From the NCBI GenBank assembly GCA_012845835.1, contig JABAKD010000024.1, positions 10,111,103 to 10,175,102 of the forward strand: a DNA stretch of 64,000 bases, written 5' to 3'. Positions 11,201 to 55,400 of this stretch are shown here, in pieces. Both the position numbers and the translations under genes were made by a program. Position 1 is the stretch's first letter, and each line of letters starts with the position of its first letter. The notes under the pieces were generated by a model that had not been told where the DNA came from, made no database searches, and worked only from the letters and a program-made list of their open reading frames with translations. This stretch comes from Undaria pinnatifida (taxonomy: Eukaryota; Sar; Phaeophyceae; Laminariales; Alariaceae).

Positions 11201-14200
11201 TGCACTTCTTTTTTTTCGTATTATCAATGCTTTTTTACCTAGGCAGTAAGTCTGGTCCTCAAGTGGCACCCTTAGTTTACTCACAATTGCCGCATTTTAG
11301 TGAGGAATAGAGCACATCAGGTGGTAGAGCCTCAGAAGATTATGGGTGTGCACCTGTATGGTGGCATGCTTGAACCGGCACTATTCCATCGGCACTATAG
11401 GGGTCCCCCTGCTGAACCTCTCGGTCTGAGAAACTGCAGTAGCTCGAAGCATGCACTATAGAGGTACCTGTGCCGAACCTTTCTGCCTGACGGGGATCGC
11501 TCATCGTGGAGCACTTGTATTTTCCCCGAAATCAGTTTTTGGGAGGCGAGGTATGGAGTAGTTCGCTCCTCATGATGTATGATGTATGATGTATAATGTC
11601 ATCATGCCAGGAGCCTCAGAAGAAACAATGGTTGGTGGACTTCTACCGTGGCACGTGTTATTACTGTAATTTACTGTAATTTACTGTATTTTATTGTAAT
11701 ACTGTACTACTGTGATACTGTAATTTTCTCTAATACTGGTATAATGGTTGTTTCAAAGTCTGGGCCCATCGATAGGATCACCATTTGACGACGGCGCTAA
11801 GCAATAGGGCCTCATTTTCCAGACTTCTGTTTCCGAAGCTCCGTGCCCATTGTACTGTCCGACGACTCCGACGAATCTCCTGAGAAGAACAAACCGAGGA
11901 ACGGTCGAATTTTTGGTCGTCAAATAACCCTTTTCTGATTTCTACCCACGCACGCTGTTGACTATAGTTGCAAATATCCTCCAGCGCCAACTCCTAGCTA
12001 TTGTAGAGGTACAGCTTCTTCCTCCTCCTAAATGCCCACGCCTGAATGACGACCTTCTGCCACTGCTAAAGGTGCGGCAAAGTTTTCCCTAAGGGGCACA
12101 AGCTATACGACCCGGAGTTCCGCAAAGCTACTGGAGGCGTTCTCGACTGCCATCCAATGTACCACCAGGTCAGAGGCAGTGCTATAGCACACCCCGGTGA
12201 TATGCTTTAGCTTTTAAGAGTTCCTGAAGGCTACGTCAGGCGGTCTTGGCTGTCATACAATGCACCATGAGATCAGAGGCAGTACCGCATATGACGGTGT
12301 ATTTTTTTTTTTAGAACACCCCCGGTGATGTTTTTTTCGTTTGTATTTTTTATCCCCGGGGGTGATAATACCGTTGGGAGTGCGGTCTACATGGTAGGGT
12401 GTGGTGTCTACCAGGTCAAAGGCAGTATGCGCAGGCCGGTTGTGGTCGCGTTTACCAGGGCTCTTCACCGGTCGGGTCGGAAAGGAAAACAAATCACGGG
12501 TCGAGTTGGGTCAGATATAGATAGGGCAAACATATCGCCAGTCGCGTCGGGTTGGGTCCGGTCCGGTCGGGTCGGGTCGGGTCGGGTCGGGTCGGGTCGG
12601 GTCGGGTCGGGTCGGGTCGGGTCGGGTCGGGTCGGGTCGGGTCGGGTCGGGTCGGGTCGGGTCGGGTCGGGTCGGGTCGGGTCGGGTCGGGTCGGGTCGG
12701 GTCGGGTCGGGTCGGGTCGGGTCGGGTCGGGTCGGGTCGGGTCGGGTCGGGTCGGGTGGACCAGTGGTAATTGACCCGACCTGTGAAACCTGGTGTTTGT
12801 TTTTTCAACGTCAAACTTGCGTCTTCTTTTTCTTGATCCCATGCTTCGTTTTGTGTCCCTGCGTCGCAATACACCCCTTATATTTTTGCTGCGCGCCCGA
12901 ACCGGAATCGTCGCCCTCTTTTCGTGCTGGTGGTCCCCAATGCGTATTCGGTAGAGCCGTGAGTCGGCAGGATTTCACGACTTGAACCTAATTGGTGGGT
13001 GCCGTTGGCTAACTAACTGATTTTAGTCGGCAAGTCGGCTGACAACGCCAGCTGATGGCCAGCCAACTTGCCGATTTAAGTGAGGCGGGCGAAGCGAGCC
13101 CCATTATCCCCCCCCGGCCGAGAGGGTCCCACCCCAACAAAATACTTCCAGCATTAAACAGTCCTTTGTCAAATTATGGAAACCCAATGGGTCGGATAGT
13201 CTGCACCTCGGGCAGACGACTAATTTTTGGTCCGACTTTAGCCTAGTAGGCGACTTAATGTTGCCGGCTCTAACCTCTAGTAATCAGACGCGTCTACGGT
13301 ATTCATGTTCTGTGCACAATCGCAGCTACACTTGCCTACTGGTGTGTGGTTTGCGGGAAAAACATTGCATGGGTGTCCTTAGTAGGGTACATATGAGTGC
13401 CCGGGTACCCAGACTTTTTGTTTATTTACTCTTGAGTACCCGGATACCCTGTCTGGTCGTTTAAGTCATACTCGGGTAGGCACTCGGTTACCCCCGGCGT
13501 ATATAAGGCAGCTTCCACGCACAAATTGCCCGCCCGTCCGCCCCCCCCCCCCCCCCTCTCCCCCCCCCCCCTCCAACCCCGCTCGCTTTTGATCAAAACC
13601 AGGCCCCCACGTCCTTCAAAACTCCGCCCCCCCCTCACCGGTTATTCGACTTACAGGATTCACTTGATAAACGGATACATTCCCCTCCACAGCTGTCAGA
13701 TTTGGTCCCCCTCAGAAACGGGTTTTATAGTTTCCGCGCACCGACTGACTAACATCACCCTGTTGACCCTGATAGCTACACTGTAGTTGTAAGGGGAGTC
13801 GCCGACCTATATCCTCAATGAGGATACACAACTCGTAATACGCGCGATCGGAGTATCACACACAGCTTGCAAAGATGAGTTTCGACGAAATCTTTGATCT
13901 CACAGCTGGAGTGTATTTTCATTTTTTATAATATACCCTACTGAGCAGTCTCAGGGGGGCACCTGGGTACCCCGGGAGTTTCACCTTACTATTTGTAGGC
14001 AGTCATACTCGGGTAGGCACCGGGGTACCCCCGGCGTATACACCCTACTGAGCAGCCAAAGTCGGGCAGGTACCTGGGTACCCCTGGAGTGCATATACTG
14101 CTAGGCAGTCATATGCCGGTAGGTACCCACGGGTATCCCCGGAGTATATACCGTTCTAAGCACACTCTTGAAATGGTCATGCTGTAGTTTTGGATGTGTT

Positions 14201-20640: not shown

Positions 20641-21899
20641 ACAAACTGGCACCAAATGGAGACGACTACTGATACAATGTATAAGGGCGTGGGTATGATC
20701 TACAGAGCTGTTGTACTTACCTTTTTTTCATATTTGTTTCTCTGTTGTGCTTATTTTGAAATAATACCGTTCACGAGCTTTGCTGCAGCTTTTTGGAAGA
20801 GTTGATTTTCGAACATGTGATTGAAAACCGCCACAGCAGTTGGCAACGGAGTACTCGTATAGCGTATTTGCAGCTATGTGACAGTGTAGTTTCTACATGA
20901 GGACATCTACGGCAGTCCTCCAAAGTTTCCATGGTCGAGTTTATGATACATTTTCATTTGTGATACCCCAACCCAGGTGTACTTTTGTAAAATCTCCATA
21001 GACTATATATCAAGGAAATAATGTGTGTACTGCTGTGCTACTTGCTTGTCCCTTGATACTAAAATACAGGATTCTCTAGTTTGTTCCTCACCGTCAACCA
21101 TCAACCTTTTTTCTAAGCCAGTTTTAGGGCATTAAAAATCCTTGGTGCAACGGCAAAGAAAAGGTTTTTACGCTGTCGCATGCACACGGACTGAATTTTT
21201 CACGGTATGCCGTTTTCTGGCAAGAGTCTGCGTTGTAAGTGGAGTCGTTTCAATAACTAACATGCCTGGCGTATCGTACTTCAATGTCCTCGTTATACCT
21301 AATTTTGGCAAATTTTCCTACATACCCTAAAGAGTCCATCGTACGACGGACGGAAGCACTGGCACTATAGTCTACATACGTACTTGTAGCGGAAACCGGC
21401 CCTATATAGCGGCAACCGGCACTACTCCACGCATATATACTGCCACTGCGGCGCTGATTGTTCCCACCTTGTGTCAAAGACGGGTTTCTTGTGTGTGGCG
21501 AGTCACCAAGGGTGAATAATGAAGTGCAATTATACAACATCATTATTAAGATTCCCCCGATGCGCACCGTCTTGTGGCCACTACAGCGAATGCCCCCAAC
21601 TCGCCAAAGCACTCACCGAGCACCCGAGGCAACGGACACAAGACATGGCAGTAGCCCACAGCCTGCTATTATCGCAATCCCCGCGACCTAACTACAGCAA
21701 GCAGCTCGATGTGAGCGCCCCCCGGTGCCAAAACATTGTTGGCAAAAAATGACACCTCGGGGCGTTCTCAGAGGTGATGTTATGTCTCCACACAGCCAGA
21801 AAAAAGAAAAACTCGGGGCCCGGGGTGTTGGTCTCTTCTTTTTCTGTTCGGGGCACACCCACCGGACGAACACACCAATACGCACTTTCCCGCGGACCT
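20640..21899. other. Stretch left of the gypsy element
   Basis: No gene was seen. The last few hundred bases may already be the 5' part of the gypsy element, but I could not find a 5' LTR. Confidence 0.3.
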
Positions 21900-24800
21900 C
21901 TGGCGCTGGAATCTATGATATCGGGCCTAAACATCAATCAGATATCAACGAAAAAACATTCAAGACGCAGAAGAAGGGCGGTTGGAGAAGCGAGCGTTTG
22001 ACTGCCGAACAAAGAGTTTCGTTCTTGCGCGTCTGGCACCGCCTGCCGAGGCGTCTGCGCGAAATGCCTTTCGACTTACATAGCCCGGAGTGGACCCCCT
22101 GCGGCTATCGAGGAACTAAGCGACGTCCTCCGCGAATTCCCGGATGTTTTTTCCAGCTCCAAACGGATTTCGGCTCCTGCTCTCGGATGCCCTTCGAAAT
22201 TTCGGTACCGGAGGGCATTGCGCTTGTCCCTTCCCGGCCACATGGCATCGACCTGATTTTGGCCAAAGAGGTGGGCGCCACCCTCAATCAGTACCTCCCT
22301 GCCGGTCTGATCCAACACTCGACTTCGCCATACTCGAGCCCTCTGGTGGTCGTCCCAAAACCATCTGGCGGGGTTCGGATCACTGTTAACTAAAAGAAGC
22401 TCAACAACACTAGCAGACTCAGCCAGCTGCCCATCCCGCGCGTGGGTCAGGTCCTGGGCTCTTTGGGCAAGGGACGCGTTTTCTCGCTTTTCGACCTAGT
22501 GTCGTCGTTTCACCAGATAACCGCCCACAAGAACACAGTTACACTCACGGCATTCTGCACCCCCACGGGCCTTCGCGGGTGGCTGGTTTTGCCTTAGGGC
22601 AGCAGCGCATCGCCTGGTTGGTTCGTGAAGGTGATCAACGAGGTTACCAAGGGCTTGGAACAGGTTGCGGCATACCTGGACGATGTGATCGTGTTCGATT
22701 CAGACCCGTCGACCCACGTTAAAGCCATCGGTGCCCTCTTCGAGCGACTGCGCAAGAACAACCTCAAGCTCTCCCCCATGAAAGCCAGACTCGGCGTGAC
22801 AGACGCCGATTTCCTGGGCCACTCCATCTCGCCCGCGGGCGTGTGCCCAAACGCCGAGAAAGTATCGGCTTCGACTCTCATGCCCATGCCGCGCGACCTG
22901 AAGCAGCTGCGCTCTCTCCTAGGTGGCCTTTCGTACTACCGAAAGTCTTCAGATATGTCCAAACGGATTTAGCCAATCACGCCCCTCCTCAAAAAGGGCG
23001 TCAAAGTCTTGTTCACGCCGAGCATGGAAGTCATCGTGCGTGACATGCTCGCGGTGCTCGCCGCTCCGCCGGTCCTGGTCTTCCCCGATTGGGACGCCGT
23101 GGAGGGCGGCTCCCGCCCTTTTCAGGTGCACTGCGACGCCAGCATTGACGGTTTTGGCGCTACGCTAGAGCAAGAACAACCCGACGGCTTCGTGAGGCCC
23201 ATTGCTTATGTTAGCCGCGCTACCCTCGACTCGGAAAGGCATTGGACGCCGCCCGATTTGGAAGGAGGCAGCATCGTATGGGCGAACAAGCGCCTTTGAG
23301 GCTACCTTTGGGGCACGAAGTTTCGCATTTTCTCGGACCGCAAGACTCGGGAAAATATAGGAAAAATTGGAGACCACAACGCGCGAGTCCAGAGGTGGCT
23401 CGAGCATCTCACTGTGTTTGACTACACGTTACTAGAGTACCGATGGTAATGCTGACTTCGTCTCGCGGTTACCACAGCCGGCGACTGAGCACGACCGCAG
23501 CGGTTCTAGCCGCCCCCCCCCTGTCGACGATGACGCCATATACCTCGTCAGGGCTTGCGGCCTGCTCACCCCGTCCACATCGATCCCCCGGTATTATTTG
23601 CTTGGGTGGGCTGGTGCCCCACCCCGATAGCGCCGTCTTGGGTGAGCTCCCCGTTACCTCCACTGACTTTCGCGACTTTCGCGCACACGGGCCACGTATG
23701 AGGATTGACGACCTTTCTGCTCCTACCGGGAGATTCGTCGCCTGTGTTTCTGCTTTCGTCGGTACCGGTGATGACCGCCTCGGCCGCGCGCCATATTGGC
23801 CTGCCGCCGACGACACTCTCACTCCAGTTTTCGCGGTGCCCTGCGGGGCTACCCCGCCAGACTTAGCCCCGCGGGCCCCTACGCCCCCACCGGAGGCTTC
23901 AGTGGCACCGCTGCCTACGGGCCGCATCTCCACTCGGACGCGCCGAAGAACAGCCGCTGCGGCCGGCGCTGCGAAGTCTGCCGTTGACTATGGTTTCGGA
24001 CCTGGCAGGGTTCCGCGGACGTCTTCCTCTCGGGTCGATCCTCCGCCGCGCGTTTCGCGACCTCGGCTGTCTTTGCTGCCGCCCCGAGCGAATCTGGAGC
24101 CCCAACGCCTGTCCCGACGGTACTCATGCCGTCTGACCGCGACCGAACGGAGCCTTTGGGTCTTCCGCCTTCAGGGCTCTCGACGCCTTCGAAGTCCCCT
24201 CCGCCCCTCCGGCCGTTTTGGACGCTCTCGGCGCTGCTGCCGAACCACACTTGGGTGATTCCGCTGCGCGTTATTGGCACGTTGATTGAGAGAGGGAGAA
24301 ACTTGCAGAGCCTACGTGCTACGCCGCCATACAATACATTCTCCTCGGCCGGCCACTGGCTTCGCCCACCGAAGTCTTGACGCGTTCCCCCTCACACCAG
24401 CGCCACCCCTTCTCGGGGATCCAGGAGCTCGCTGGCAAAGGCCACCTCATATTATACTACGACGAGGACAGTGCCCTCCGTGTCCGTAGTCCAACCCCTG
24501 CCCACTACTCCTTACGGCCTGCGGGGCGCGCGACTTGCCTTTTGGGCGACGAACTACTCCGTATTTTCGTGCCGCTACTCATGCGCTCTTGGATCATGCA
24601 AGCATGCTATTCGACTGCTTCCTGCCATCTAGGTACGGCACGCACACTTCGCATGCTCGAGCGTTTCTATTGGTGGATAGGAATGAGCATATGCCCCCGC
24701 TGGTGGTTGCGTCATTGCTTGAAGTGCCAAGCGCGGAAGACACCGCGACTGACGGTTCGATGGCCCGTCATTTTTATTCCCGTCCCTCCGGGGCCGGGCA

Positions 24801-26480
24801 TTGTGGCAAGCGTGGACTATTAGGGCCATTGCCGGTCACGCCCCGGGGTAATACCTAGATGTTGCTTTTCACCGACCGCTTTAGCCGTCGTACGGATATG
24901 TTCGTCGTCACCGCCGCGAAATTTACAGCTATAGGCACGGCCAAGATCCTTAGCAACCGGTACATTCCCCTTCGGGGGTGTCCACGTAGCATCCTCTCGG
25001 ACAACGGCCTCCAGTTCTTCTTCAAGCTTTCCCACGTCGTATATAATCTCCTTGTTGTTCGAAAAATCGCGACCAGCTCCTACCATCCAAGCGGCAACAG
25101 TGGTGTGGAGCGCGTTAACCACACAATGGCCCAAATGCTGGATATGGCCGTCAACGAACGCCAAGACGATTGGGACGCGCAGTTGCCGCACGTGGAGTTC
25201 GCCTATGACAATTCGGTCAGTACCGCCACTACCTGGCCCCCAACGAGATTCACATGGGCAGGCTCCCGCACCTCCCTCTCACTATTTTCGACCGCTCCGG
25301 GGTCGCCGGCCGTCAGAGCCTGGCCCGTGACCACCTCGCATACTGCGACCTGGCGTCAGAATTCCAAAAGTGCGCCAACGACATTAATCGCAAGATGCAT
25401 GCCTTAACAGTTTCCTGTGTGGAACGGCAAAACTCAGCCCTCTCGGACGCTTTGCTCCAGGTTCCTAACTTCGTTGTGGGTAATTGGGTTTGGCTGTATA
25501 ATACGACCTCCACTATTCGCCAAGGCGCGAAAGCCGGCACGGATGCAAAGGTACTCAAGGCCAAATTCGCGCTAAATTGGACGGGTCCCTACAAAATCCT
25601 TGCCGTCGGCCCCAGCCCCTTTAGCGACACATCGGACGGTCCCCCTCTCGGGGACAAGCTCCTCTATTTGGACCTCCCCACAGACATTCCCGGCGCGGAT
25701 GCGCCCGCCGCGTCTCCGTCGAGCGCTGCAAGCCCTGCACCAACCCCCACGACCACGGCGACATGCCTAAGTACCTTCCGGATGGGTTGAGTAGTACGTG
25801 CTCAACAATTTTACGACCCCCCCCCCATATAACGTGACCCAAGACGACGTGTCGGTGCCCCTCCAGCGGGTAGAGGTGGAGAGGATGACCGACATGGCGA
25901 CCGATGGCCATCAATGGCCATCAATGGCCATCAATGGCTCCGTGGTAGGGATGGGGTCATCGCCGTGATGTGATGTACGAGAGGGCTCTCCCGTCCGTCG
26001 TGGGAACGGGAGATAGACCTCCAGCTCTCACGCTGGCAGATCTTGCTCTACTGGACTGCCACTCTGAACCAACACCGCCAGACCAACCGCCTGTATCGAC
26101 AGATGCGCATAGGAGCTGCACATAGGGAGCTTTTCCGTGCTAACGGCGAACGTTTCTTGGCACCTGGTTACGGCTGCGTGCCACGCGCTTACTGGTTGCG
26201 CCACTACATCACTACAGCACTACAGCACCACGGTGCTCCTCAAGGGGGCCCATGCTTGGTACAAAGCCGATGACGGCTTGTGGTGGCTTAGGAAAATCAG
26301 CGCTCGCACATCCATCGGCGGGGAATATTTGGTACGTTTTCTAGACGACCCGGGACCGATCAAGCTTCCGCTCTCTCTGGCTCACTACACGACTTCGACA
26401 GGAGGTGTTCAAGGTTCCTGGTGCCTTCAACTTGGTCGGGGTACATCACCTGCACGCGGTATTCAAAGTAGCGACTAGTA
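21900..26480 (+). mobile_element. Ty3/gypsy LTR retrotransposon, broken, ends uncertain
   Basis: A fossil pol region lies in family order. Reverse transcriptase spans about 22.1-22.97 kb, with a YLDDVIVFD active-site motif and an LGHSISPAG connection. RNase H follows at 23.0-23.44 kb (HCDASIDGFG), then a spacer. Integrase runs about 24.4-25.3 kb, with an HH..CC-like zinc region (HCLKCQARK), a DNGLQFF core and HPSGNSGVERVN. A C-terminal region at 26.2-26.46 kb reads like a Tudor- or chromo-type fold (AWYKADDGLWWL, YLVRFLDDPGPIKLP). By eye it carries roughly half a dozen to ten breaks, so it is inactive and not young. Gag and protease were not recognised. The 3' untranslated part probably runs on to about 27.14 kb. 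Confidence 0.8.
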
Positions 26481-27020
26481 CATCAATCTGGAGACACGGA
26501 CGTGGCTAGTTCACGTTCAGGCCACCGCTGCCCTCGAGTATTGTGATCCGGTTTTCCCGGTTTTGAATTTTCTTCTTCGGGGGGCATTCGTTTTTGTCCT
26601 GGGCTTTTGATTCAGCTTTGCTGGGGAGATTTTCCTGGCGATTCTTCGCCCGGTTTCGACGTCGACCCCGCAGGTTGGGGCACGATGTCCATTCCGCGCG
26701 CGCGAGTTGGGTTTCGTACGTAGCGCGTTTTGGTACGTTCTTGCGACCGCTTGGGGTTTTGCTCACGAGGTTTTTGACTCCTTTGCCTTCGACCCCAGCG
26801 CTCTCGCATTTAGTTGTTTTTCCCTCTTTTTCTGCATAGTTCCCGTTTTCCCTTTTTTCTGGTCCCGATTCCCTCGCTAATCTGCGAAGGTGATAGCTAT
26901 CGCGCCTGTCGATCCCGCCATTTGCTGGAGTGTTCTGTACCTTTTTTTTCACGGTTTCTGCTCTTCGTTTGAGGTTTTCTGCCGTAGCATTTTCGCTGAG
27001 GCTTCGTAGCCTCGCAGGGT

Positions 27021-27140
27021 AGAGGTGTGGGAGTAGGTTGTGAAGAGCCGCATCTTCGAGTCATGTTTTAGACGGTGGAACCGGTGCTTCCCCGAATCTT
27101 CCATATTTCTGCATATACGGCTCATCAGGGTGGGCTAATG
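27021..27140 (+). mobile_element. Pre-LTR sequence and polypurine tract of the gypsy family
   Basis: From AGAGGTGTGGGAGTAGG to CAGGGTGGGCTAATG this matches 28813-28930 closely. In the second copy it is followed directly by an LTR-like repeat that starts TGTTAA. Here the first bases TGTT are followed by a foldback element instead. Confidence 0.5.
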
Positions 27141-27242
27141 TTTGTTGGTTATATAGCACTACCCACTGGCCCACGCAGTCAGTTATATAGCACTACCCAC
27201 TGGCCCACGTACTCACTGATGACGTGGGCCAGTCACTGACTA
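27141..27242. repeat. Partial tRNA-like arms forming a long palindrome with 27243-27282
   Basis: TTATATAGCACTACCCACTGG is present twice (27150-27210) and its inverse once at 27245-27275, flanked by TTGGT / ACCAA. The DNA can fold into a hairpin with a stem of about 40 bp. Confidence 0.65.
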
Positions 27243-27531
27243 CGTGGGCCAGTGGGTAGTGCTATATAACCAACAAAAGACATGTTTGGGAGTCCGCCAT
27301 TTGACTCTCACCGACTTCGTAACAGGGGTGTCCGGGGCTCTCTCCCCTTGCCACGCACTACCGTAGTACTCAGGAGCAAACTATCATAACCGTTCACGTC
27401 TCCAGCGCGCACACTCGCAAAGACGTTATTTCATTTTTGCTTTTCCGGGGAAAAATTGGCAATACGAAGTCGGTGAGACTCGAACCCATTTGTTGGCTAT
27501 GTAGACCTACCCACTGAGATACGTCGTCACG
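27243..27531 (-). mobile_element. Foldback element with tRNA-like inverted ends, copy 1
   Basis: The right end (27466-27531, minus strand) has a Pol III A-box-like TATCTCAGTGGGTAGG and a B-box GGGTTCGAGTCTC, ending CACCGACTTC. The left end (27243-27320, plus) has CCAGTGGGTAGTGC and the same CACCGACTTCG end, with a degraded B-box. The body between (CTCTCTCCCC, CACTACCGTAGT, CGTCTCCAGCGCGCAC) is the inverse of the body at 48567-48715. The two tRNA-like ends point outward-in, like TIRs. Confidence 0.55.
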
Positions 27532-27566
27532 TGACCTGGGGAGAGAGCCCCGGAGATCCCTGTTAC

Positions 27567-27649
27567 GAAGTCGGTGAGAGTCAATTGACGGACTCGCAAA
27601 CAGATATTTTGCTGGTTATATAGCACTACCCACTGGTCCACGTATTCAC
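27567..27649 (-). repeat. Extra tRNA-like end beside the foldback element
   Basis: Starts GAAGTCGGTGAGAG and ends GGTTATATAGCACTACCCAC. It is preceded by a short piece of body (GGGGAGAGAGCCCC). Confidence 0.5.
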
Positions 27650-27659
27650 CTATATAACC

Positions 27660-28287
27660 AACAGTGTTAACTATGGTATTCCCGTGGGAGCCTAACAAGG
27701 CGTAAGATATAGTATACGGCTGGATATTAAAAGGGTTCACATGCCTTTCAAGGCATGTGCGTATAGGTAAAAGGGGATGATGCTTTTGCCTCGCGGAATT
27801 GAACGCCATTCAGTTCGTCCGTGGCGTGTGTGGAACTAAGACAAGAGCTTATCTAGTACCAGTGAGTGACCAACGTGGGACCTGCCCAGCAGAGAAACCT
27901 GCAAAGGGTGTAACAGCCCCTTAATCTTTTTATATTGCGCCGTTCGCCGCCGGGGGCAAGCACCCCCTCCAAAGTAAAAAAAAAAGGGTTGTTGGGATAA
28001 TTCTTCTGCTTCTGGTATGCTTTATCGTATGTATATTATATGTGTTCGTTGTGTATTTGCCGGCAGGAGCGCCGAGATGGTCCGTGGTTTCAAGTTGATG
28101 GAAATGTTTTCAATGTGAACAAATAAAAACAACAACAACGAACGGGAGAACAACAGCAACAACAATAATAACAATGTTGCCGGAGAGTCGTTCTGAGGTC
28201 GACTATTATTATTATCACCGCTAATGTTATTCTTTGACGAAATCGCCGGTTTTGAAGCCAGAGCTCTCGGCCGTGTCTTTCTGCTGA
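27660..28287. other. Unassigned stretch
   Basis: AAC-rich DNA at 28125-28175 is the only repeat seen. Confidence 0.3.
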
Positions 28288-28291
28288 ATAC

Positions 28292-29204
28292 TGTTAAGAT
28301 ACGGCCTCGAAAGGCCTGCAATTATCCGTATTGAGAAAATTTAGATGGGTTTCGTATGATAAGGTTGGCGTTTTATATTCGGGATAGTCAGGAAATAGAT
28401 CGGAGGCACGTGCCTCCGGTCTCAGAAGCTATTCGGGGCTCTGGTGGAATCGAATGTAACAACATCTCTACGAAGGCTAAGAAAGTGAGCGCGCTCCGAG
28501 GACCAGCTCAATTGGCAGGCCTGCAGGGGACAATCTGTGTCCCCGCCCAATACTCTTACAATATGGCGTCGACGGCAGGACCGCTTCGTCATAGTGCCTT
28601 TTCTGTGGTCGGTTTGCCGTAGAGCCTTTCCTGCCCCCCCCCCGCTACACCGGCGATATGCGGCAGGTTCTAGAGCCTCTTCTGCCCCCCCCCGCCACAC
28701 CGGCGGTACGCGGCAGGTTTTTGATGGGTGGCTTTCGCATTGATGTAGGGTCTGCGTTGCCTTCAACTGCTTTCTTCGCGTGTTCCTGGCTCCATAGCCA
28801 GACCGTTAGTCTAGAGGTGTGGGAGTGGGTTTTGAGGAGCCGCATCTTCGACTCATGGTCTAGTTCGTAGAATCGGAGTTTCCCCGAATCTTCCATACTT
28901 TTACATATTCGGCTCGTCAGGGTGGGCTAGTGTTAATACACGGCCTCGAAAGGCCTGTAATTATCCGTATCATTGACATATTTGGATGGGTTTGGTATGA
29001 TAAGGTTGGCGTTTTATATTCGGGATAGTCAGGAAATAGATCGGAGGCACGTGCCTCCGATCTCAGAAGCCATCCGGGGCTCTGGTGCAATCGAATAAAG
29101 CTACGTCTCAACGAAGAAGGCTAAGAAAGTGAATACGCTTCGAGGACCTGCTCAATTGGCGGACCTGCAGGGGACAATCTGTGTCCCCGCCCAATACCCT
29201 TAAA
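28292..29204 (+). mobile_element. Small non-coding LTR element (TRIM-like), looks whole
   Basis: Two direct repeats, 28292-28560 and 28931-29204, both begin TGTTAA and end near CTTACA/CTTAAA. They differ at about 10% of positions by eye, which suggests an old insertion. The interior is only about 370 bp and non-coding. Its last 118 bp match the region just before the presumed LTR of the gypsy element (27021-27140), including a purine-rich AGGGTGGGCTAG before the second LTR. An ATAC flanks both sides and is likely the target-site duplication. Confidence 0.65.
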
Positions 29205-29320
29205 ATACGGTGCCCCTCGCCACCCCGACATCATCGTTCGATAGTCCTTTGAAAACAAGAAAAAAAAGATAATGTGTTTTTTTTTTTTTTCCATTGCATC
29301 CTTCCTCGTATTGAGCAGCC

Positions 29321-29699: not shown

Positions 29700-31240
29700 C
29701 GATAGTTAACGCATAATAATAGAGCGCGACCGCAATGTCCCATATATATCACGTTGACGTTGTACAGGACAGCCGCAACTGAGGTGTATACCTGGTATAT
29801 ACTAACTGCTGTGTTGTGGTGGTACTTTCTTGAACTCCCCAATCAACAACAATGAATGAGTTGGCACCCCGGCAGCCCCTTCTCCTGCTTTTTTACCAGC
29901 AACTTGGTCAAGCCTTCCTGGCAAGCGCCGGAAAAGGCGCCATTGCGCGCACATTGCGCCTACAGCGTACAACAGCAGTACGTGAACAATGGGAAGCGTC
30001 ATGGTGCGTACAACAGCAGTACAGCAGCAATAACAGTAGCATCATACACACCAATACATACAGCTAGTGGAAATCGCTATTATTTACCGTACAACAAGCA
30101 AGTCAGTGGTACAACAAGCAAGCAGTGGTACAACAAGACGCCGGGTCTGAGTGCCAGGCCCACGGCCCAGGTGTGACGGACATGGAGGTCATCTCTGGTT
30201 CGAATTTTGTTTTGACCACACGGGCTTCCACATGTATTGTGCTTGCGGGCAGTATTCTCGCAGCAGCGGGGAAATCGTTTCATGCTGTCGCGCTGCCGCG
30301 CTGCCGGGCTGTCGCTGTAACTGCCAGAAAATACTTGTAACTGCTGTCGCGGTCCATGGGTCGCAAATTTTCAATTTTGAGTTGAAGTTTGATTTTTTCC
30401 CTAGGTAAACATCCCAAACTATAATGTAAACTCCAAATTTGAATTGTTCAACCACCTCTCACCGCTTCTCGCTTCTTCTGCTGTGTGGGGTACTACGTTC
30501 ATGTCCGACTCGCTAGACGACCTCCTTGCTTCATGCCACCTCGTGTCAAGGTACAGTGCTGACTTCGCGATGGAAGATGAACGGTTGCTCCACAGCACAA
30601 GCGCCGATATCCTGCTATCTTTCCTGCTGTTGTGCGTAGGCCGAGCTCAAGCTTCTTGCTGGGTACCGCCCACGTAGCTACTGCTGTAGTACCGCCGTAC
30701 AGCACCGGTGGTCTCTCTGTAGTGCCAGTACGTGCCAGCCGACAATAGCGGCACTATACCGGACTCCGGCACTTTTAGGTATAGTAACGATACTGGTGAT
30801 AGTATTGCGGTGCGTCTTGTACTACTGTGAGCAAAAGTGATACCGGTACCAGGTACATATGTGTGCACAGCAGTATATGGTCCAAGCATGAGGCTTCGGT
30901 GTGCAAGACGCAAGACCCCTCGTATTACCAGCGAGTATTGAGAGCAACCGCCGTACCTTGTACTCGCTATTAGGGTGGATAGCGCGTTACGGTACTAGAC
31001 TTGATAGTTACGGGCTGAGGGTGTCTGCACAGATGTGGAGGCCTCAACTGCCCTCAATAATTCCTGTCTGTACAGATATAGAGGCCTCAACTGCCCTCAG
31101 TAGGGCGGTAGACCGCTCTATTGAGGGGTGAGCTGTGAATAAGCTGGTCACCGCCGTACTGTGGGTTTCAGTCATTCCGGGCTATAAATCTTATGAAGGG
31201 GGTGGTTGTAGAGTAAAATAATATATGGTTGTAGAGTAAA
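29700..31240. other. Unassigned stretch with a GCCGGTATAGTGCC-family repeat
   Basis: Words ACAACAGCAGTACG and ACAACAAGCA.GCAGTGGT recur at 29968-30130. GCACCGGTGGTC and GGCACTATACCGGACTCCGG lie at 30700-30790. GTCTGTACAGAT.TAGAGGCCTCAACTGCCCTCA is present twice at 31022-31100. Confidence 0.35.
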
Positions 31241-32848
31241 TCGAGAGTGTATAACGCCTTCCAGGTCCGATAGGAACAATGCCTGCAATGTAATTGGAAA
31301 CCTTTTTTTTCCATCACTATAGAAGTATGCCCACCACGAATTTCTGGGAAAATTCTTGGCGGAAATTTCCGGCAACATTCTTGCATAACTGCTGTGACAA
31401 CAGAAATCAATGCGCCTTCTTCGTAGATCGGGATGCTGTGTCCTAAAACTGGGGGACAGACGGCATGCATCTTGTGTGGGCAATCCTCGAGATGATGCAT
31501 TGGGCATTGGAGTACTGTCACCGTGTGCGCACGCACGTGCGCGCCCCCTCACAGAACTTTACCCGTGCTGCTGTCCGGCAGCCTTTCACACGTGGTTGCC
31601 ATCTGCCGCTTGGACGCGGCAGCGCACGATTGTCACGGAAAACGCGAGACACATACATGATGAGTAAAACAAGGGCGGGCGTGTGGCGACACACACAACC
31701 AAAGACAAGAGCACGGATGTGTATGGCGACAAACGGGAAGAAGACACAGCAGCTGCAGCTGCTGTGGTAGTAGTAGCCCACCTACGAGCACAGCCGAGAG
31801 AGGGCCCTCCCGGCCTAGCTATGGTGGCGCAGCCGCATCTACCTCGTGTCCGTGCCCTACAGGGCTGGGTGGTGATTGATGTAGACCGTTTGGAGGGGGA
31901 GGTGATATCGTTGTGTGGGGCGGGTGGGGTGTGGGGGGCAATCAATGACAACTGGCTTGCAGCTTGCAGGATACAGGATCAACTTCAACCAAAAAGCCCC
32001 CCTCGCAAGATTTATAACCCCCTGTCTTGCGGTTTGGGATCGTTCGAGTTTAATTCGAGAGTGTATAACGCCTTCCTGGTCCGATAGGAATAATGCCTGC
32101 GATGTAAATTGGAATACTTTTTTTCCATCACTATAAAAGTATGCCCACCACGAATTTCTGGGAAAATTCTTGGCGGAAATTTCCGGCAACATTCTCGCAT
32201 ATCTGCTGTGCGCCTTCTGCGTAGATCGGGATGTTGTTGTATTCTAAAAACTGGGGGACAGACGACATTCGTCTTGTGTGTGGGCAATCCTCGAAATGCA
32301 TTGGAGTAGTGCCACCGTGTGCGCACGCACGTGCGCGCCCCCTCACAGAACTTCACCCGTGCTGCTGTCCGGCAGCCTTTCACATGTGGTTGCCATCTGC
32401 CGCTCGAACGCGGCTGCGCACGATTGTGGCGGAAAACGCGAGACACATACATGATGAGTAAAACAAGGGCGGGCGTGTGGCGACACACACAACCAAAGAC
32501 AAGAGCACGGATGTGTATGGGCGACAAACGCGAAGAAGACACAGCAGCAGCAGCTAGCTGTTGTAGTAGTAGCCCACCACAGCACAGCCGAGAGAGGGCC
32601 CTCCCGGCCTAGCTATGGTGGCGCAGCCTCATCTACCTCGTGTCCGTGCCCTACAGGGCTGGGTGATGATTGATGTAGAGCGTTTGGAGGGGGAGGTGAT
32701 ATCGTTGTGAGGGGCGGGTGGGGTGTGTGAGGCAATCAATGAAAACTGGCTTGCTGCTTGCGGGATTAAGGATCAACTTCAACCAAAGAGCCCCCCTCGC
32801 AGGATTTATAACCCCCTGTGTTGCGGTTTGGGATCGTTCGGGTTTAAT
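31241..32848 (+). repeat. Tandem duplication, units 31241-32054 and 32055-32848
   Basis: Both units start TCGAGAGTGTATAACGCCTTC and end CGGTTTGGGATCGTTCG.GTTTAAT. They agree closely throughout, with small indels explaining 814 versus 794 bp. No conserved reading frame of known function was seen in either. Confidence 0.85.
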
Positions 32849-33344
32849 TAAAAAAAATGAAAAACATCACTTCAGCTGCGAGGGCACTGCTGTTTTAGGT
32901 ACCCCGATCTACATATTTAGAAATGGATCTTCCTGAGATTGGTTTCGCCGCTTAAAGATCAAAATGCCGACATAAGATGTCCAAGCAGTGCGTTTGGCAA
33001 AACGAGTCTCGATGCAGCAGCAAACAGCATTGTTCAATATATTCTAAGGCATTATTTAGGGGGATGGTTGTAGGCACTGGGCCGGGGGATAGGGAAAACG
33101 CTTGGATTTTTCTCTTACAAATCATGTGTGGCATGCAAGTCAAAGAACCAATCGAATTCGAGTCATGACTGGCATTATAGCTTGCACTTTGGCCGTGTTT
33201 GGTCAACAGTCGCAGGCAACTCCAGCAGCACGCAACACCATGCATCTGTGGCGGTACATCCGCACTGTACTCTGGCTTGTTGCATATATCAGAACCTGCG
33301 ATCTGTCACCGCGAGGATGGACCGAGGATAGAGCGGTCGATCCC
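32849..33344. other. Unassigned stretch
   Basis: Begins with ATGAAAAACATCACTTCAGC, which resembles the tail of the R420 repeat. Nothing else was seen. Confidence 0.3.
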
Positions 33345-37432: not shown

Positions 37433-40400
37433 GTAACGGTGCGCACAAGTTGGCGGGGGTTAGCGAAAGGATGGGGGGTGGGTGGGGGCTGGGTTGGGTG
37501 GAGGGATGGGGGCGTGGGGGCGGGGGGCGAGGTTTGGCGGGAGGGGGCGGCGGGGGGGCGTTTTTCGGGGCTCCTTTTCAGCCTCACACGCCCGAATTTC
37601 CATATCCAATGTCCCGCCCAACGACGGTACATTGGGCTGATCCCCCGAAAAAACATTAATGTATTGAGTCAATTAATTCCTTTGTGACTACTGGTGGCAT
37701 CGTGTTGAAATGTCCTGCTTCCCATCAACGCACATAGTTGATGACAGATACCTAATATCCGCCAGCACGAGTTCCTAGCGATAGCTACAGTAGCATCTTG
37801 TTCTTGTTGTCGCATGTACGCTGATGGTACGGTCGGAAAAGTTAAAAAGCCCCAGGTTGTCGGATGTCCTAGCGCGAGTTTCTAGCAATAGCTACGGTAA
37901 CATCTTACTCTTACTGTCGCATGCACGCTGAAAAGACGGTCGGAAAAGCTAAACAGCACCAGTTTGTCGGATGTTGGGCTTTAGCCGTTTCATTACGTGC
38001 GTTCAAGCTCGTTGGTTTAGGCTCCACCGCTGTGTCTCAGGTTGCACCGCATTTCTTTGTGAAACGCATCCTGTACCACCCTGCTGGCAGCTGCACACAA
38101 GTACCACACGCACCAAATATATCGACACAAGTATCGTGTACACTACGTATTGCGATTGACTGTTTGACGTGCATGCCATAGCTTCAACTACCGTAGTTTA
38201 TCGAATACAGTGGAGTCGGGTGCCTGGTTTAGGAGCGTCCGTGGCGGGCTTAAGAGCGGTGAAATCGGCTTGTCACTTTTTGTGGCGCCTAAAACTGCAT
38301 GATACCCCATCTGAGACCAGAGCTGTGTGGAAATAATAGCGGTAACACTTGGCTGTTCCGAGAGGCTCTTAAATCGGGTACCCAGTGCACGGTGTCTTGA
38401 GTCGTTTTTGGCGTCTGTCTTGTACGAGATGTATGACGTTGTTAGCGTGCAATAATGACGGACTTGCTATCGGCCAGTACATGCGTTTTGCTGGAGAATG
38501 AATATCATCCTCCGCGTGACAGGCGAGCCCGGTTCAGTAACGTGTGCATTCGAATTTCAATGCGCTCACAGCACTGCTACTGTCGATACAGCTGCATCAT
38601 TTCAGATACATCATTTCAGTTTTTTTCATGGGTGAGGAGTCAGGTCACGACCCGCGGGTGTGGCCAGGAGGTTTTTCAAAGTCTAGCGAGTCCATTGCTG
38701 TCGGGTCGGGAGGTGGTTTTATATCATGAGTCGGGTCGGGTCGGGTCGGATCGGGTCGGATCGGGTCGGGTCGAGTTGGGAGGTTTGCGGTTTTCACGGG
38801 TCGGGTAGCGTTAGGGTGCCTCGACCCGACCCGACCCGACCCGAGAGAAGCGACCCCACCCGTGAATATATGATTTAGAACAAGGCTGTTGTTGCGTTTA
38901 TCATTGTAAAAATTATGCATCTCTGAATTAAACCCGACATTTTACGTCGTAACGTGGGTGCGAGCTACCGGAGAGTTCGAGAACGGAGTTGATTTTCCTT
39001 TGCGTATCTTGAATGGCATCATACGGCAGTGCCAGCGTGCCCAACCGCAGCCGCAGAAGTTGGGATATATAGCCAGGTGTTCTGGCTTGTCTAATACCGC
39101 GTAGCCCGGGTGTCAAAGGAGTTATTGTCGCTCGTACGTGTGATAGCTCGGGGTGGCATTGCCGGGCCTACTTGCTGGTGTCCCGGTGGCCGATTGTTCA
39201 TAGCAGTGCACCTGTCCGATGCTTTCACCACAAACTAGGGGCATGCCCACGCTCGGACCGACCTTGCCTCAAACCTTTTTACTGACCTATCTCCGTGCTT
39301 GATCTTATCTTGTACTACTGTATAAAATCAACCCCCTACTAATTCCAAGCACTTTGTTCTAAGAGGGCCTTAAAGGGCACATACATTGGCCTGTGGGATT
39401 ATCCAGGGCCACGCCTTGAACCGGGGTGTGTTACAGTGGCTACACCGCTATAACCCCGTAATCTTATTTTGTGCGTTGGAATTTATCCGTACCCCTTGTT
39501 GTGTGCGTCACAGAAGCAACTCAATCAAGACGGGGCCGCGCAGGCGCCCGAGTCGAGAAAGCACCAAGAAGCAGAAGATGGGGTGGGTGTTATCAGTGCT
39601 CACGGTCAGGGAGATGGTGGTACCACGACTTTTAGTACTACCACGAGTTTTGATGGTATTACGCCATGTACTCCTGGTAGTACCACGATAGCTTCTTGTA
39701 TTAATAGAGGGCCAAGCCTTCCTGAAGCGGTGGTACCTGCGAGTGCGGAGATCAAACCGCGAAGATCACGTGAAAACCGCCTTCCGCCAGAGCATGATTG
39801 CGGTGGTAACATCTCGGCGCCGGACGATGGCTCATCGAGCATCACCGACAGCCTGCGGCAAATATTGGATCAGGCCCGCAGCATTCGGACTAAGGAGGCT
39901 TCGTCTTGTCGCAGCCGAGCGTCGACTGCAAGGCCAGAGAGATCTGTCGCTGCTGAACGCTCTCAGACAGCGACTCCGAGACTGGCTCGGGAGTCTTGCC
40001 GGGTGGCTTCCAACTCCGTCAATAGAACGCATCTGGGTGCATCGCCAACCCTGGGGGCTGGTCGAATCAATTCAAATGCCAAATTGACGTCGACCGCTTC
40101 GAATTTGAATCCAATCTACCGCGAGCGTTCTACCACTCGCATTACACGCTCCAGGCATGCCGAATCTGACTCTGGTTTGGGGCGGTCTGCCCGCGAACAG
40201 CACACCGCGCCGAACGCGGCTCCGACTTACGTGACCCCTGAAAGATCGGGTGCCGCTCTCCCCGCTGCACCAACTTCGTCTAGGGTAACCAGGTGCTCCG
40301 TGTTTGAGTCGCACTCGGCTGACGTACACGCGGCAAGCCCTCAACTTGCCGAAGGAGGATATGGAAACACCCCGTCCGAAGGTCTGGAACTTTCGACGGA

Positions 40401-46400: not shown

Positions 46401-49400
46401 AGCCTACGCTTGATGTAGTCACCACATGAAAAATATGCGTACTGCCGTTTCAACGTCACGTACCAACCAGAGAGCCACCTGCGCTCGAAACCACACAGCT
46501 CGAGTACAGGGGAAAAATAACACCATGAAGCACGAAACACGCACAACGCTGAAACAAAGAGAGCTCACTCCACTGCAGTTTTAAAAACCGAATCCACACA
46601 GAGCATGAAACATGTTTGCCGAGCGAAGCAAAATCACAGATCGCACCAGCGACCTTAGCCCAAAGAACGGCATTCCCAAACTACGACTTCCATGCATCAC
46701 GAAGGGTGGACTGCACCTCACCCCTCCCCTTCGCTCTACGCTTGACTTGAGTTTCATGTGTAAACGAATGAACGGTTCTCAAAAGAAGGAATAGCGATTC
46801 GCTGTATTCGCCGTTTCCCCCTTTCGCGTACAAGTAGGAACGAACTTCCTCAAGACGAGAGCGGACTTCGGCTTCTGAAAGGGAGGTTGTGACTAACCCT
46901 AACCCTAACCCTAACCCTATGGTTCTGTAAAAAATGTCGTCTTTATAGCGGGGAGTTGACTTAAGCCGAGCGTCTTTAAAGCGGGGACGACTGTAATGCG
47001 ACTCGATGTCGACGACATCTCCGCGAAGATTCAAAAGCACCAACTTTTAACACCAAATAAAGGGGGCTTGTCATGGGCCGACGCTGGTGGGCCGGCCGGC
47101 CCGGCCCGGCCCATCACTTGCTCATGTGGTGGGCCGCGGCCCGGCCCGGCCCATCAATTTTCCAGTGGATGGGCTGCGACTCGGCCCTTGCCGTCAAAAA
47201 TTTAGAGGATGGGCCACGGCCCGGCCGGACCCATCGAATCTATTTTTTTTCCGGCCCGGCCCGGCCCGGCTCATGGCATTCTCCATTTTTCCGGCCTGGC
47301 CTGGACCGACCCATGACATTTGCAGCGAGGCTCATGAGACGCGGGCTCTAAATGGGCCGGCCCACCATCTCTGTGGGCCAGCCCGTTGATTTGAAGGGCC
47401 GGCCCATGAGCCGACGCATGGGTCACCCGGTATTATACAGTGCACGCTGACGTTTTTGGATTTGTGTTGATGATTATCGGCTGACTATTATGTGTTATAT
47501 TCTTCTTATATACCGGTTCGTGGCCGTTTCATGATTTTATTTACAGTACACTACATATCATGAGCCGCGGCCCGGGCAGGCCCGCGAAAACGCGTGGGCC
47601 GCCTCATAGACCGTGTCGGCGTCGTCGTCGTAGTAGCAGCAGTTGTTCACATATCATGGGCCGCGGCCCGGGCTGGCCGTGAAAACACGTGGGTCGCCTC
47701 ATAGACTGGGCAGCGCGGCCCATATAAAACCTACATCTCATGGACCGCGGGACGACCCGGTCTATCAAGTTTTCAAAATTCTCGGCCCGGTCCGATCACG
47801 CCTATCACTTTTTCAATTTTTTCGACCCGGCCCGTGACAATATTCCAATCGGTCCCGCCCGCACCATTGGCACCATTGGCCCATGGCAAGCCCTGCTAAA
47901 TTCCGTAACAAACCGTCGTTCCCGATCAAGGCGAAATCTGATGGAGACGTTGCTGAGGACACATGGAGAAGATCGAAACAAGTTTGAATGCCCAATTCGT
48001 CGCCCATCACGACATAGGGAGAAAATACAATTCGTCCTCGTTAATTGAAGTAAAACAGAGGACTAAGGTACTTACTGCGGTGCAGCGCTCAACTTTTCGA
48101 TTTTCGATCTGGAATTTTAACAGCGTATTCGTGACGTCCGTGCGAAATTATGTCGTTCGTGCCTTGTTTTCAAGATGAGTAGTTTTAGCCGCGTTTTTTT
48201 GGGGGGGTTGCTTTTTGGTGATATCTCTCGATCGAAAAACAACTCGAAAAATACAGGAAATCAACGTGTGGATTTGTGCATGAAAAACGCTGCGTGGCAA
48301 TTTTGCACGTCCAACTGCCTAAAATTGGGCGCTGGGTGGCCGATCTCCCGTTGTGACGGGGTGTTGGCTGGCCCAGATCGTGTGCGCACCGGAGTTATAC
48401 GCGCGGCGCGAGGCGCATCGCTAGTGGCCGTTTCGCACTTCAGTCGCTTGTTGGTTATATTGAACTACCCACTGAGCTACGTAGTCACGCGACTGCGTGG
48501 CTCAGTGGGTAGTTCTATATAACCAACAAAAGATATGTCGTGGGTTCGAATCCCACCGACTTCATTTTTCCGCTTGTTTCCGGGAAAAGCTTTACAATAA
48601 CGAAATTACGTCTCTACAAGCGTGCGCGCTGGAGACGTGAATGGTCATGATAGTTTGCTCCTGAGCACTACGGTAGTGCGTGGCGAGGGGAGAGAGCCCC
48701 GCAGATTCCTGTTACGAAGTCGGTGAGAGCCAATTGGACTCGCAAACATATCTTTAGTTGGTTATATAGCACTACCCACTGGCCCACGCAGTCACTAACC
48801 AACATTACTTTCTTAACGTACCGTGTACGACAGCGCGTATCACCCGGTACATTTTATGCCATATACCTAAAGTATGCCACACGTGGTGGTCATTTTTGTG
48901 GAGCTTCGCATGATTGTCACCGGGGGCGTGATATACACCGTCTTGGACGGCATGATATGTACCGGGGTCATACGCACCGGGCGAGGCGCATCGCGAGTGG
49001 TCAACTCACGCTGCAGTTACCTACTTGACCCTCTTTGTACTGCTAAAGTGCTATCCCATTCTACTTCCAAGTAGTTTTTCCCCAGAAATGTGGGTTGAGT
49101 TCTAGACGGGCAACCCCTTTGAATCTTTACACAAAGAGACGGACGTAAGACGAACACGATTATGGCGTGGAACTGTTTGGACATTTTTTTTCCGACCTAC
49201 GCGACTCCTCAACTACAGCATTCTTTGCATAGCCAACCACTGTCGTTTGTTGTTGTTGTTGTAATATTAGGCCGTGGGATTGGTTATCTGGTTGCAGTAA
49301 GCCTCGGTATGGATCTCTTCATATGAGAAACCTTAGAAAAATTGTGTGCACCCGTAATCCCGTAATGCATGCCTGGTAAGATAGGGGCGCACTTGCTTTT

Positions 49401-52400: not shown

Positions 52401-55400
52401 GTGGTCAAAGCAAATTTGCGAAGTGAGTTGCGATCCAGATTAACACATAAATATCCTAACTTAGGGTTAGGGTTAGGGTTAGGGTTATCTTCCGCTCTTT
52501 ACGGTACGCTAAAACTATTGGAATATCCCTTATTTTGAGTCAGGCTCAACTTTCGTCTTGTCTGGCTGTGCGTCCTACGCTAATGTCAGTCTTAAAAAAG
52601 GCGTTTTTTGTTTTTTGAGCAAAGGCGCAGGGCTAATTTGTCTTACGCTCCCAATTCCTTGCCGCGTTGAGAACTTGAAACAAGTATCTCTTCACCCATT
52701 CCAAGCCTTTTGCCCCGAAACCGTGGGTTCAGTTCTAACGTAAATGGCGTTCGAAAGGGGTTATGTTGGCTGTTGTAACGTACGAATAGTGTATGCCAAA
52801 CAGTTATTCCGATATTCTCGTGTAGCACTTGGATCACCTGGCGACCTCACTTGCAGACACGGCAGACGACCTAATCGTACTATCATACGATAGGGGCGTT
52901 TTTTTTTTTTTTGTCTGGTTGATGGGGCTTCTCGGCTGAGGAACTATCAAATATCATCATGGTATACCCATCATGGTATAATCATGATGATGTACTAATC
53001 ACGGCATATAGCCCCTCAAGTGAAGAGCCTTGAGCATTTTTGCGTGAGCCCGCTACCGTAGCATTCGTCCGCGACCACAACTAGACGCAGCAGCTTGGCT
53101 GCGCCCCTTACCGGCAGGCCGGGGCGGCGACGGGCCGTGTCGGGGCGGATTGCCAACCACTCGTCGAACAAGTGGGTATTGAAAAAGGCCGGACTCCCCT
53201 CCTCCCCCCGCCTGATGCATCGCACCCGGTGGGGAGGGCGGCTTGCTTATTGAACGTCGAGCCTATCCCTACTCATCTTTCGCTTTTGCTCACCCCCCCC
53301 CCCCCCCCCCCTCCCCCCCGTTTCAATGACCATCTTCCGTGTATTTTGGATGCGACGTTTTGGGTGTGCGGCGTTTGTTCCTGGTAAAACCAACACACAG
53401 AAATATAACGGAAAATGGTGAAACGGTTCGCCCGTGCTTCTGGCGACTCAAACCCCAACCCCTCGCTACACCACGGCAATCAAAGCATAGCTAGATTCTG
53501 CTACTTCATCCTAGAAGCGTACCGGGCTTACCCGTCGAGTGGATAATACTGCGGCGGTGAGTTTACCGGCCGATAGTCATATATATATAATTTCTGTTAA
53601 GCACCCTTCTCGAGCGTTCATCTAGATACGATAAAAAAATCATGCACGTAGAGAAGTGCGGTCGCACGCATCATCATAGTGCATACATATCGACATCTCA
53701 ATCTTACGATGTAGGCCATCCTCAATTGGAACTCCCTAATGCCATCAAACCGTTGTCGTTGCTTCATTGCTGTATCCTGGTGCAACAATAATCAACAGCC
53801 TCCCTGCTTCACACCTGATACGGCATGACATCGTTTTATATACCTCTAGGTAAAACAAGCCAATGAACATTTGTAGTGAATCTACATCTTCCCTGAACTA
53901 CTTTGACCGAAAGAAAGGTTGCAGTACTATTGTCCCTGAAAGTCACTCCTAAAATCAAGAATCGAAATCTAGCGACAAAATCCAGAATAACTTTACAACC
54001 GAAATCCTAAATCAAAGTCCAAAATACGAAATCAACCCATCGAAAACAAGAATCCAAACTTCAAAAACCAGTATATTAGGTCCGAAAAACTAACTCCAAA
54101 GTTCGAAATCTCCATCATCAACCCGGTCATCAACACCCAGCTGCCATAACTAGAGATGTTACTGCACGATAATCTAACGGACACCAGCTGGTGAAATAGA
54201 GTCGAAACGAGTGTACGAGCACAGAAGTCCCCAAACTCACTATATAATCCCCTCCCCTCCCCCTCCCCTGATCCCTTTTGTTCATAACCCCCCCCCCCCT
54301 TCCCCCCCCCCCCCCCCCCCCCCCGATCCCTCCCCCCCCCCCCCCCCCCCCCTTCCGCCTAGTTTGTCCAAACGCCCCACTCACAATCGAAATCGGTCAG
54401 AGTAATAAACACCTATACGCAGTTGATATCACGTCATTTTCTTTCTAACCATCCATGACGTAGTTTTCATTCTTTCCCCCCACCCTCCCAAAAAAAAAAC
54501 CCTCCAACGCCCCCTCTTTTCCAACCACCCGCACGATCGCCTAGACCTAGCACCACGCCCATAACAAGCTCCTACATATCTTTGATCTCACAGCCGAAGT
54601 GTATTTGAATATTATTTGTGACCTAAACCTCCTAAAAAATCTCCCCCCCCCCCCCCCCCCCCCCCCTTCTCGCCCTCCCTTGCTCAAACGCCCCACCTAA
54701 TATCGAAGTCCGCCAGATTAATAAACACTTCACGCACTGGATATCACCTCATTATCTTTCGAAAGCCATCCATGCCGCTGCTTTCCCCCCCTCCGCCCCA
54801 AACGCGCCCTTCTTCCCCACCACCCGCACCATCGCCTAGACCTAGCACCACACGTATAACAAACCCCTCACTTAAAACCCTTCCTTCCCCCCGCCCACCC
54901 CCACCCCCCCGCCCCCTCCATCCCCCCTCCTCCGCCCCCACCCCCCACCTCCCCAACCCCCCCCAACCCATCCCAACCCCACCCCCTCGAACACTCTCTC
55001 TCTCTACTCACTGATTGTACGACTTACCCCATGATATACATGATAAACTGATGAATTCTTCCCAAAACCGTCACATTTATCCCCCAAAATAATGTATAGT
55101 TTCCACCCACAGATTGAGCTGCCCCACACGCCCCCCCCCCCGCCCAACGCCCCCCCCCCCATGATAAACTGGTGCATTATTTTTTTCTTCTTTTTTTCTT
55201 TTTTTTTTCCCCAAAACCGTCAGATTTATCCCCTTGAAAGGATTTATAGCTTACACGCACAAATTGTCCGCCCGTCCGCCCCCCCCCCCCCCTCCAACCC
55301 CGCTCGCTTTTGATCAAAACCAGGCCCCCACGTCCTTCAAAACTCCGCCCCCTCCCTCACCGGCTATTCGACTTACAGGATTCACTTGATAAAAAGATAC

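Follow-up and report, generated by a model that had tools for sequence, protein, structure and literature searches.

The 64-kb window, by which we mean the whole stretch of DNA analysed, contains two copies of a short, apparently non-autonomous element that we regard, with about even confidence, as being of the foldback/MITE type: a DNA element with TG...CA ends and with arms derived from a sequence that is tRNA-like and perhaps of SINE origin. The two copies agree less well with an RNA-mobilised SINE. The copies lie in opposite orientation, and a self-comparison of the window aligns 27237-27535 with 48794-48484 at 81.8% identity over 314 columns (E 1.6e-87), which bears out the inverted second copy that an earlier note on this DNA had placed at 48491-48794. 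Within the aligned core 251/289 bases are identical and the differences comprise 23 transitions and 15 transversions, a divergence of ~13% between copy 1 and copy 2. Both loci of the earlier note are real, and we corrected the limits to 27143-27663 and 48449-48804 because the outermost tips fall outside the spans given there; the body, put at 150 bp, measures ~135 bp. BLAST with both copies found no third copy in the 64-kb window, other matches being at most 24 nt long with E values of 0.2 or worse. The copies and their parts are as follows:

27143-27663, minus strand (head strand): copy 1 from tip to tip (TGTTGGTTATATAG ... CTATATAACCAACA), the tips complementary at 14/14 positions
48449-48804, plus strand (head strand): copy 2 from tip to tip (TGTTGGTTA ... 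TAACCAACA)
48568-48703, plus strand: body of copy 2, ~135 bp, with 18 mismatches to copy 1 in 131 aligned bases
48704-48794, minus strand: tail of copy 2, the reverse complement of the tRNA-like arm, with the B box lost
27237-27355, plus strand: tail arm of copy 1 and the adjoining body end, inverted partner of 27530-27648 (119 nt, 88%)
27530-27648, minus strand: extra arm of copy 1 outside the head, missing from copy 2

Read in the direction of the head, both copies have the same order: the tip TGTTGG, an inverted half-copy or remnant, the tRNA-like head, the body, the inverted tRNA-like tail, half-copies or a short remnant, and the tip CCAACA. Only copy 1 has the additional 119-nt arm outside its head.

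The inverted arms are tRNA-like, as had been proposed, but the picture of two facing tRNA-like sequences that each carry both boxes is half right, because the tail retains the A-box half and has lost the B box; both boxes occur in the heads only. The two heads are:

48491-48564, plus strand: tRNA-like head of copy 2, with an A box at 48498-48509, a B box at 48543-48553, a T-arm and the acceptor-like sequence CGACTTC
27466-27530, minus strand: tRNA-like head of copy 1, 10 nt shorter between the boxes, with no Rfam match at E 10

Neither the A box nor the B box of the copy 2 head has a mismatch, and the two are spaced as in tRNA; as read from the sequence, the T-stem is perfect, with all five pairs, and the 3' end is acceptor-like. 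In the copy 1 head the A box has one mismatch, a 10-nt gap lies between the boxes in the alignment, and the B box has 1 mismatch to GGTTCRANNCC and 0 to the shorter RGTTCRANNC. Copy 1 has two tail arms and copy 2 has one; in each of the three the A box has one mismatch, and their best B-box matches anywhere have 3, 4 and 3 mismatches to GGTTCRANNCC and 2 each to RGTTCRANNC, and by eye another hairpin occupies the place of the T-loop. A hand count of acceptor-stem pairs gave 4/7 for copy 2 and 5/7 for copy 1. The window contains a single cassette of A and B boxes, that of the copy 2 head, and 60 first-order Markov sequences simulated at the same length yielded one between them.

ARAGORN called no tRNA in the window, and Rfam at gathering thresholds gave no match. 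With relaxed Rfam settings the region of the copy 2 head (48400-48567) gave a weak tRNA-clan match, to the tmRNA model, at 15.1 bits and E 3.9e-4 (gathering score 47), and a second relaxed run gave the same model 13.2 bits and E 4.5e-4 for this head; both outputs omit lower-scoring matches of the same clan, the score of the plain tRNA model included. MicroRNA matches at relaxed Rfam settings (up to 51.1 bits, E 1.1e-9) were all under their gathering scores, were ascribed to hairpin shape and were rejected. A relaxed ARAGORN run, which treated each piece as circular, gave tRNA candidates in 4/5 pieces; among those listed, the candidates wrapped round the ends or had introns, and they were not used. 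The tRNA-like character of the copy 2 head is fairly well supported, and the putative tRNA likeness of the other arms rests on their similarity to this head.

Five consecutive T bases form a Pol III termination signal, and such a run lies 3' of each head:

48565-48569, plus strand: T5 run that follows the copy 2 head directly (copy 2 positions 117-121), an expected Pol III stop
27451-27455, minus strand (T on the minus strand): T5 run ~10 nt past the copy 1 head (positions 209-213 of copy 1 reversed)

Transcription by Pol III should therefore end ahead of the body, and for neither copy is a full-length transcript predicted of the kind expected of a tRNA-derived SINE. Both copies lack a poly-A or simple-repeat tail and contain no run of at least 6 A or T bases; they finish in CCAACA. 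The heads are internal, 42 nt from the tip in copy 2 and 133 nt in copy 1. These features, together with the recurrence of the same inverted tip at 4/4 ends, weigh against a tRNA-derived SINE whose Pol III RNA is copied by a LINE reverse transcriptase, with the cDNA often snapping back to give inverted ends. Such a SINE would account for the exact boxes of the copy 2 head, spaced as in tRNA, and for the weak tRNA-clan match, and candidate duplications of 5-7 bp would lie within the 5-18 bp reported for HaSE1 in the part of its description compared (PMC3272025). On balance we judge an RNA-mobilised SINE unlikely, and we favour DNA-type mobilisation in trans because of the shared inverted tips, the missing SINE tail, the T5 run after both heads and the internal position of the heads.

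The tRNA resemblance could also be convergent or accidental, in which case the copies would be an ordinary terminal-inverted-repeat MITE. ARAGORN's failure to call a tRNA, the copy 1 head with no Rfam match at E 10, the tails that lack a B box and the damaged acceptor stems (4/7 and 5/7 by hand count) are all in keeping with this reading. Against it stand the A box, B box and perfect T-stem found at tRNA spacing in copy 2, and a cassette of this kind was seen only once in the 60 simulated windows. We consider a convergent or accidental likeness improbable.

The ends speak for the foldback/MITE-type DNA element. All 4/4 outer ends of the two copies have the same motif, TGTTGGTTA/TAACCAACA, and a shared terminal inverted-repeat tip is a trait of foldback elements and MITEs. 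Exact occurrences of the 9-mer TGTTGGTTA number 7 in the 64-kb window, with 6 in these two elements and 1 at 3743. Each outer end is an inverted extra copy of the tRNA 5' half, 9 to 43 nt long, in which the motif is the outer part; the tip coincides with the anticodon-loop region of the tRNA-like arm, and the palindromes at the ends are centred near the tRNA 5' end. At the window-left ends the terminal arms are 43 nt long in copy 1 and 39 nt long in copy 2; at the right ends they measure 14 and 9 nt. The precise end of the element is uncertain because complementarity at the window-left ends continues 2 (copy 1) and 1 (copy 2) T bases past TGTTGG. The proposal that extra half-copies make long palindromes proved correct, with complementary arms of 39, 43 and 119 nt. 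The terminal palindromes are:

48448-48529, no strand assigned: terminal palindrome of copy 2 (outer inverted half and head half), with 39-nt arms 92% complementary and 4 nt apart
27141-27277, no strand assigned: terminal palindrome of copy 1, with 43-nt arms 98% complementary and 51 nt apart

The copy 1 palindrome is enlarged by a half-repeat 34 nt on and by a 20-nt tandem repeat, and the 119-nt arms at 27237-27355 and 27530-27648 are 88% complementary; we count this foldback-type expansion in favour of the foldback/MITE-type reading. Internally repetitive inverted arms, a foldback trait, are present in copy 1, and copy 2 has inverted half-copies only. Folding as single-stranded DNA went far beyond that of shuffles in both copies (z -9.57 and -18.33; 0/100 shuffles each).

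The half-copies also bear on how the palindromes arose. The outer half of copy 2 differs at 2/32 positions from its own head and at 5/32 from its own tail, and the outer half of copy 1 differs at 0/32 positions from the adjoining tail, 8/32 from the head and also 0/32 from the tail of copy 2. Both of the testable outer halves (n=2) thus match the adjoining arm best, as local snap-back palindrome formation predicts. Between the copies the tail half has 1 mismatch in 38 and the rest of the aligned core 37 in 251, a low divergence of the tail half that is expected if the tips are constrained. We rejected a recent snap-back origin for the 119-nt extra arm of copy 1, which is not young because its likeness to its own partner (88.2%) is about the same as that to copy 2 (86.7%).

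The sequences next to the tips suggest possible, imperfect target duplications of 5-7 bp at both copies:

27138-27142, plus strand: possible target duplication to the left of copy 1, ATGTT, paired with GTGTT at 27664-27668 on the right, imperfect
48444-48448, plus strand: possible target duplication to the left of copy 2, TCGCT, paired with TTACT at 48805-48809 on the right, imperfect, with transitions only

When the ends are read as GTTGG...CCAAC, the flanking 7 bases agree at 5/7 positions in copy 1 (AATGTTT/AGTGTTA) and at 4/7 in copy 2 (GTCGCTT/ATTACTT), where all differences are transitions; when they are read as TG...CA, the same register gives the 5-bp duplications ATGTT/GTGTT and TCGCT/TTACT. 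The combined duplication statistic was equalled by 342/20,000 random draws of two site pairs, with lengths and shifts included. With the ends at GTTGG/CCAAC, duplications of 8-10 bp, as in Mutator-type foldback elements, were not found, since only 1-4 bases match per copy.

The left flank of each copy has a paralogue close by. That of copy 1 is 28812-28934 (84.6% over 123 bp), which has AGTGTTA at the site, followed by another repeat (28928-29210, with a further copy at 28289-28566); homology stops where that repeat starts, so this paralogue gives no right-hand junction. The joined flanks of copy 1 scored 162 at every length tried, and copy 1 is therefore uninformative on duplication length. 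The joined flanks of copy 2 align ungapped over 80 columns to the nearby paralogue 48961-49040, and best when 7 bases are omitted between GTTGG and CCAAC (68, vs 62, 63, 65 and 62 for 5, 6, 8 and 9); the right flank alone gave no significant match to this paralogue, with 453/500 shuffles as good. A 40-bp direct repeat (85%) at 48388-48427 and 48961-49000, either side of copy 2, was taken as the possible empty-site paralogue.

Other repeats are present in the window. A 280-bp repeat has two direct copies, 88% identical, at 28289-28566 and 28928-29210, and it begins before the 123-bp repeat common to 27020-27142 and 28812-28934 has ended. A dispersed family occupies 13510-13934, 55248-55656, 57303-57447 and 59338-59479, with matches of ~137-426 columns that are 88.7-93.7% identical and occur in both orientations. 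There is also a tandem duplication of ~820 bp (31237-32055 and 32051-32849, 90% identical), and GTCGG pentanucleotide arrays lie at 12541-12757 (43.4 copies) and 38730-38773 (8.8 copies).

The TG...CA ends would also suit a solo LTR, or a small derivative of an LTR retroelement, that carries a tRNA-like sequence, much as a 5S promoter may be found in a TRIM such as Cassandra. The flanks permit 5-bp duplications, and TGTTG...CAACA fits the TGTNR described for Gypsy LTR and Ginger ends in the part of the source compared (PMC2836005). Inverted repeats of 14-119 nt and terminal palindromes, however, are not features of LTRs, and the self-comparison of the window found no direct-repeat pair of these copies round an internal region; we give this explanation little probability. 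It is likewise quite doubtful that two ordinary SINEs or pseudo-tRNAs landed inverted and then reached the second site by segmental duplication, for which the ~13% core divergence is old enough, because the outer flanks of 360-660 bp beyond the tips differ between the copies, whereas the order and the tips are common to both.

If the copies are a foldback/MITE-type DNA element, the transposase or integrase that binds and cuts their tips would come from an unseen partner and would leave short (~5-7 bp) target duplications. The arms may go back to a Pol III unit of tRNA-like sequence, possibly the head of a SINE, which would have been turned into the inverted repeat of the element. The outer half-copies would have arisen in place: through a hairpin or by snap-back, copying would have run from the 5' end of the tRNA in the direction of the anticodon loop, and trimming or slippage would have followed close to the palindrome centres. 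DNA mobilisation itself we infer from two copies with imperfect duplications. Both copies are too short to encode a DDE transposase, and none was found in the window frames scanned with Pfam (27 entries, 24 distinct frames, of 60 frames of at least 130 aa). The sole Pfam match among the frames scanned is an integrase H2C2 domain (PF17921, E 8.2e-11) at 24290-24820. This match lies in a stretch of broken reading frames, 21692-25787, that in our reading resembles a gypsy-type retroelement.

The earlier note had offered two readings of its own. The anatomy agrees with the first, a SINE pair turned into a DNA-mobilised unit, given the TG...CA tips at four ends, the lack of a SINE tail, the shared order and the unshared flanks, but there is one B-box arm per copy rather than a pair. 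The second, a new kind of element, goes further than the data, since foldback elements with internally repeated arms and a MITE-like element of the SINE superfamily are already known. More speculatively, and with a low probability in our view, a former tRNA-derived SINE may have come to move in another way: the palindromes would have been made by self-primed copying that began at the tRNA 5' end, and the CCAACA tips would now be used by an integrase-type transposase. The anticodon-loop sequence CCAACA would then happen to give TG...CA ends, and half a tRNA would serve as the end of a DNA transposon.

Should copies elsewhere in the genome confirm the foldback/MITE-type reading, this would be a tRNA head turned into the end by which a DNA element is recognised, a bridge between SINEs and inverted-repeat transposons, two groups usually kept apart; the element would also provide a tractable example of foldback arms born by local palindrome formation. 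For the open-licence PMC literature, the titles and abstract openings listed in the searches included no foldback element with tRNA-like arms. Exact DNA patterns retrieved no relatives from viral or prokaryotic contig collections, a blank that says little about a eukaryote. Four loci with pattern matches (L001-L004; one viral and three genome contigs) matched over at most 18-27 nt, had no ARAGORN tRNA and were taken as chance, with sequence context inspected for L001 and L004 only.

Several known elements share parts of this anatomy. The Twin SINE of Culex pipiens reportedly has two tRNA-related regions, as the present copies do, but these are said to form a dimer with both tRNAs facing the same way, in an element with features of a retroposon; in the copies here the second arm is inverted and the same inverted tip stands at every end. 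HaSE2 of Helicoverpa armigera joins a tRNA-related head to DNA-transposon sequence; according to the part of its description compared, it shares 98% identity with a mariner-like element over its 3' part and its tail is without a simple repeat or A/T stretch, though it was published as a SINE (PMC3272025). HzSINE1 of H. zea appears in a review table as a MITE-like, class II member of the SINE superfamily with a 5' inverted repeat (PMC9659126). Unlike the copies here, neither HaSE2 nor HzSINE1 has an inverted pair of tRNA-like arms in the descriptions compared.

The tips, TGTTG, fit the TGTNR ends of Ginger and related integrase-type transposons, for which duplications of 4-5 bp are reported (PMC2836005). 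As described there in part, Ginger1 targets CCGG/CCGT and Ginger2 prefers RTATAY, and neither sequence is present at the two sites here (ATGTT/GTGTT and TCGCT/TTACT); unlike these transposons, the present copies come with no transposase seen. A similar layout is seen in the foldback element Tetris and in Galileo, a foldback-like member of the P superfamily, which also have long, internally repetitive inverted arms, a non-coding middle and a variable arm layout (PMC4079207, PMC3688188). It has been proposed that several lineages of transposons gave rise to foldback structures (PMC4079207), and repeated arms can carry extra transposase-binding sites (PMC3688188). In the descriptions compared, Tetris differs from the present copies in its 8-10 bp duplications and Galileo in its terminal inverted repeats of 0.5-1.2 kb, and tRNA-like arms are mentioned for neither. 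Two points are unusual in the present copies: a tRNA-like sequence makes up the arm, and the tip coincides with the anticodon-loop region of that sequence.
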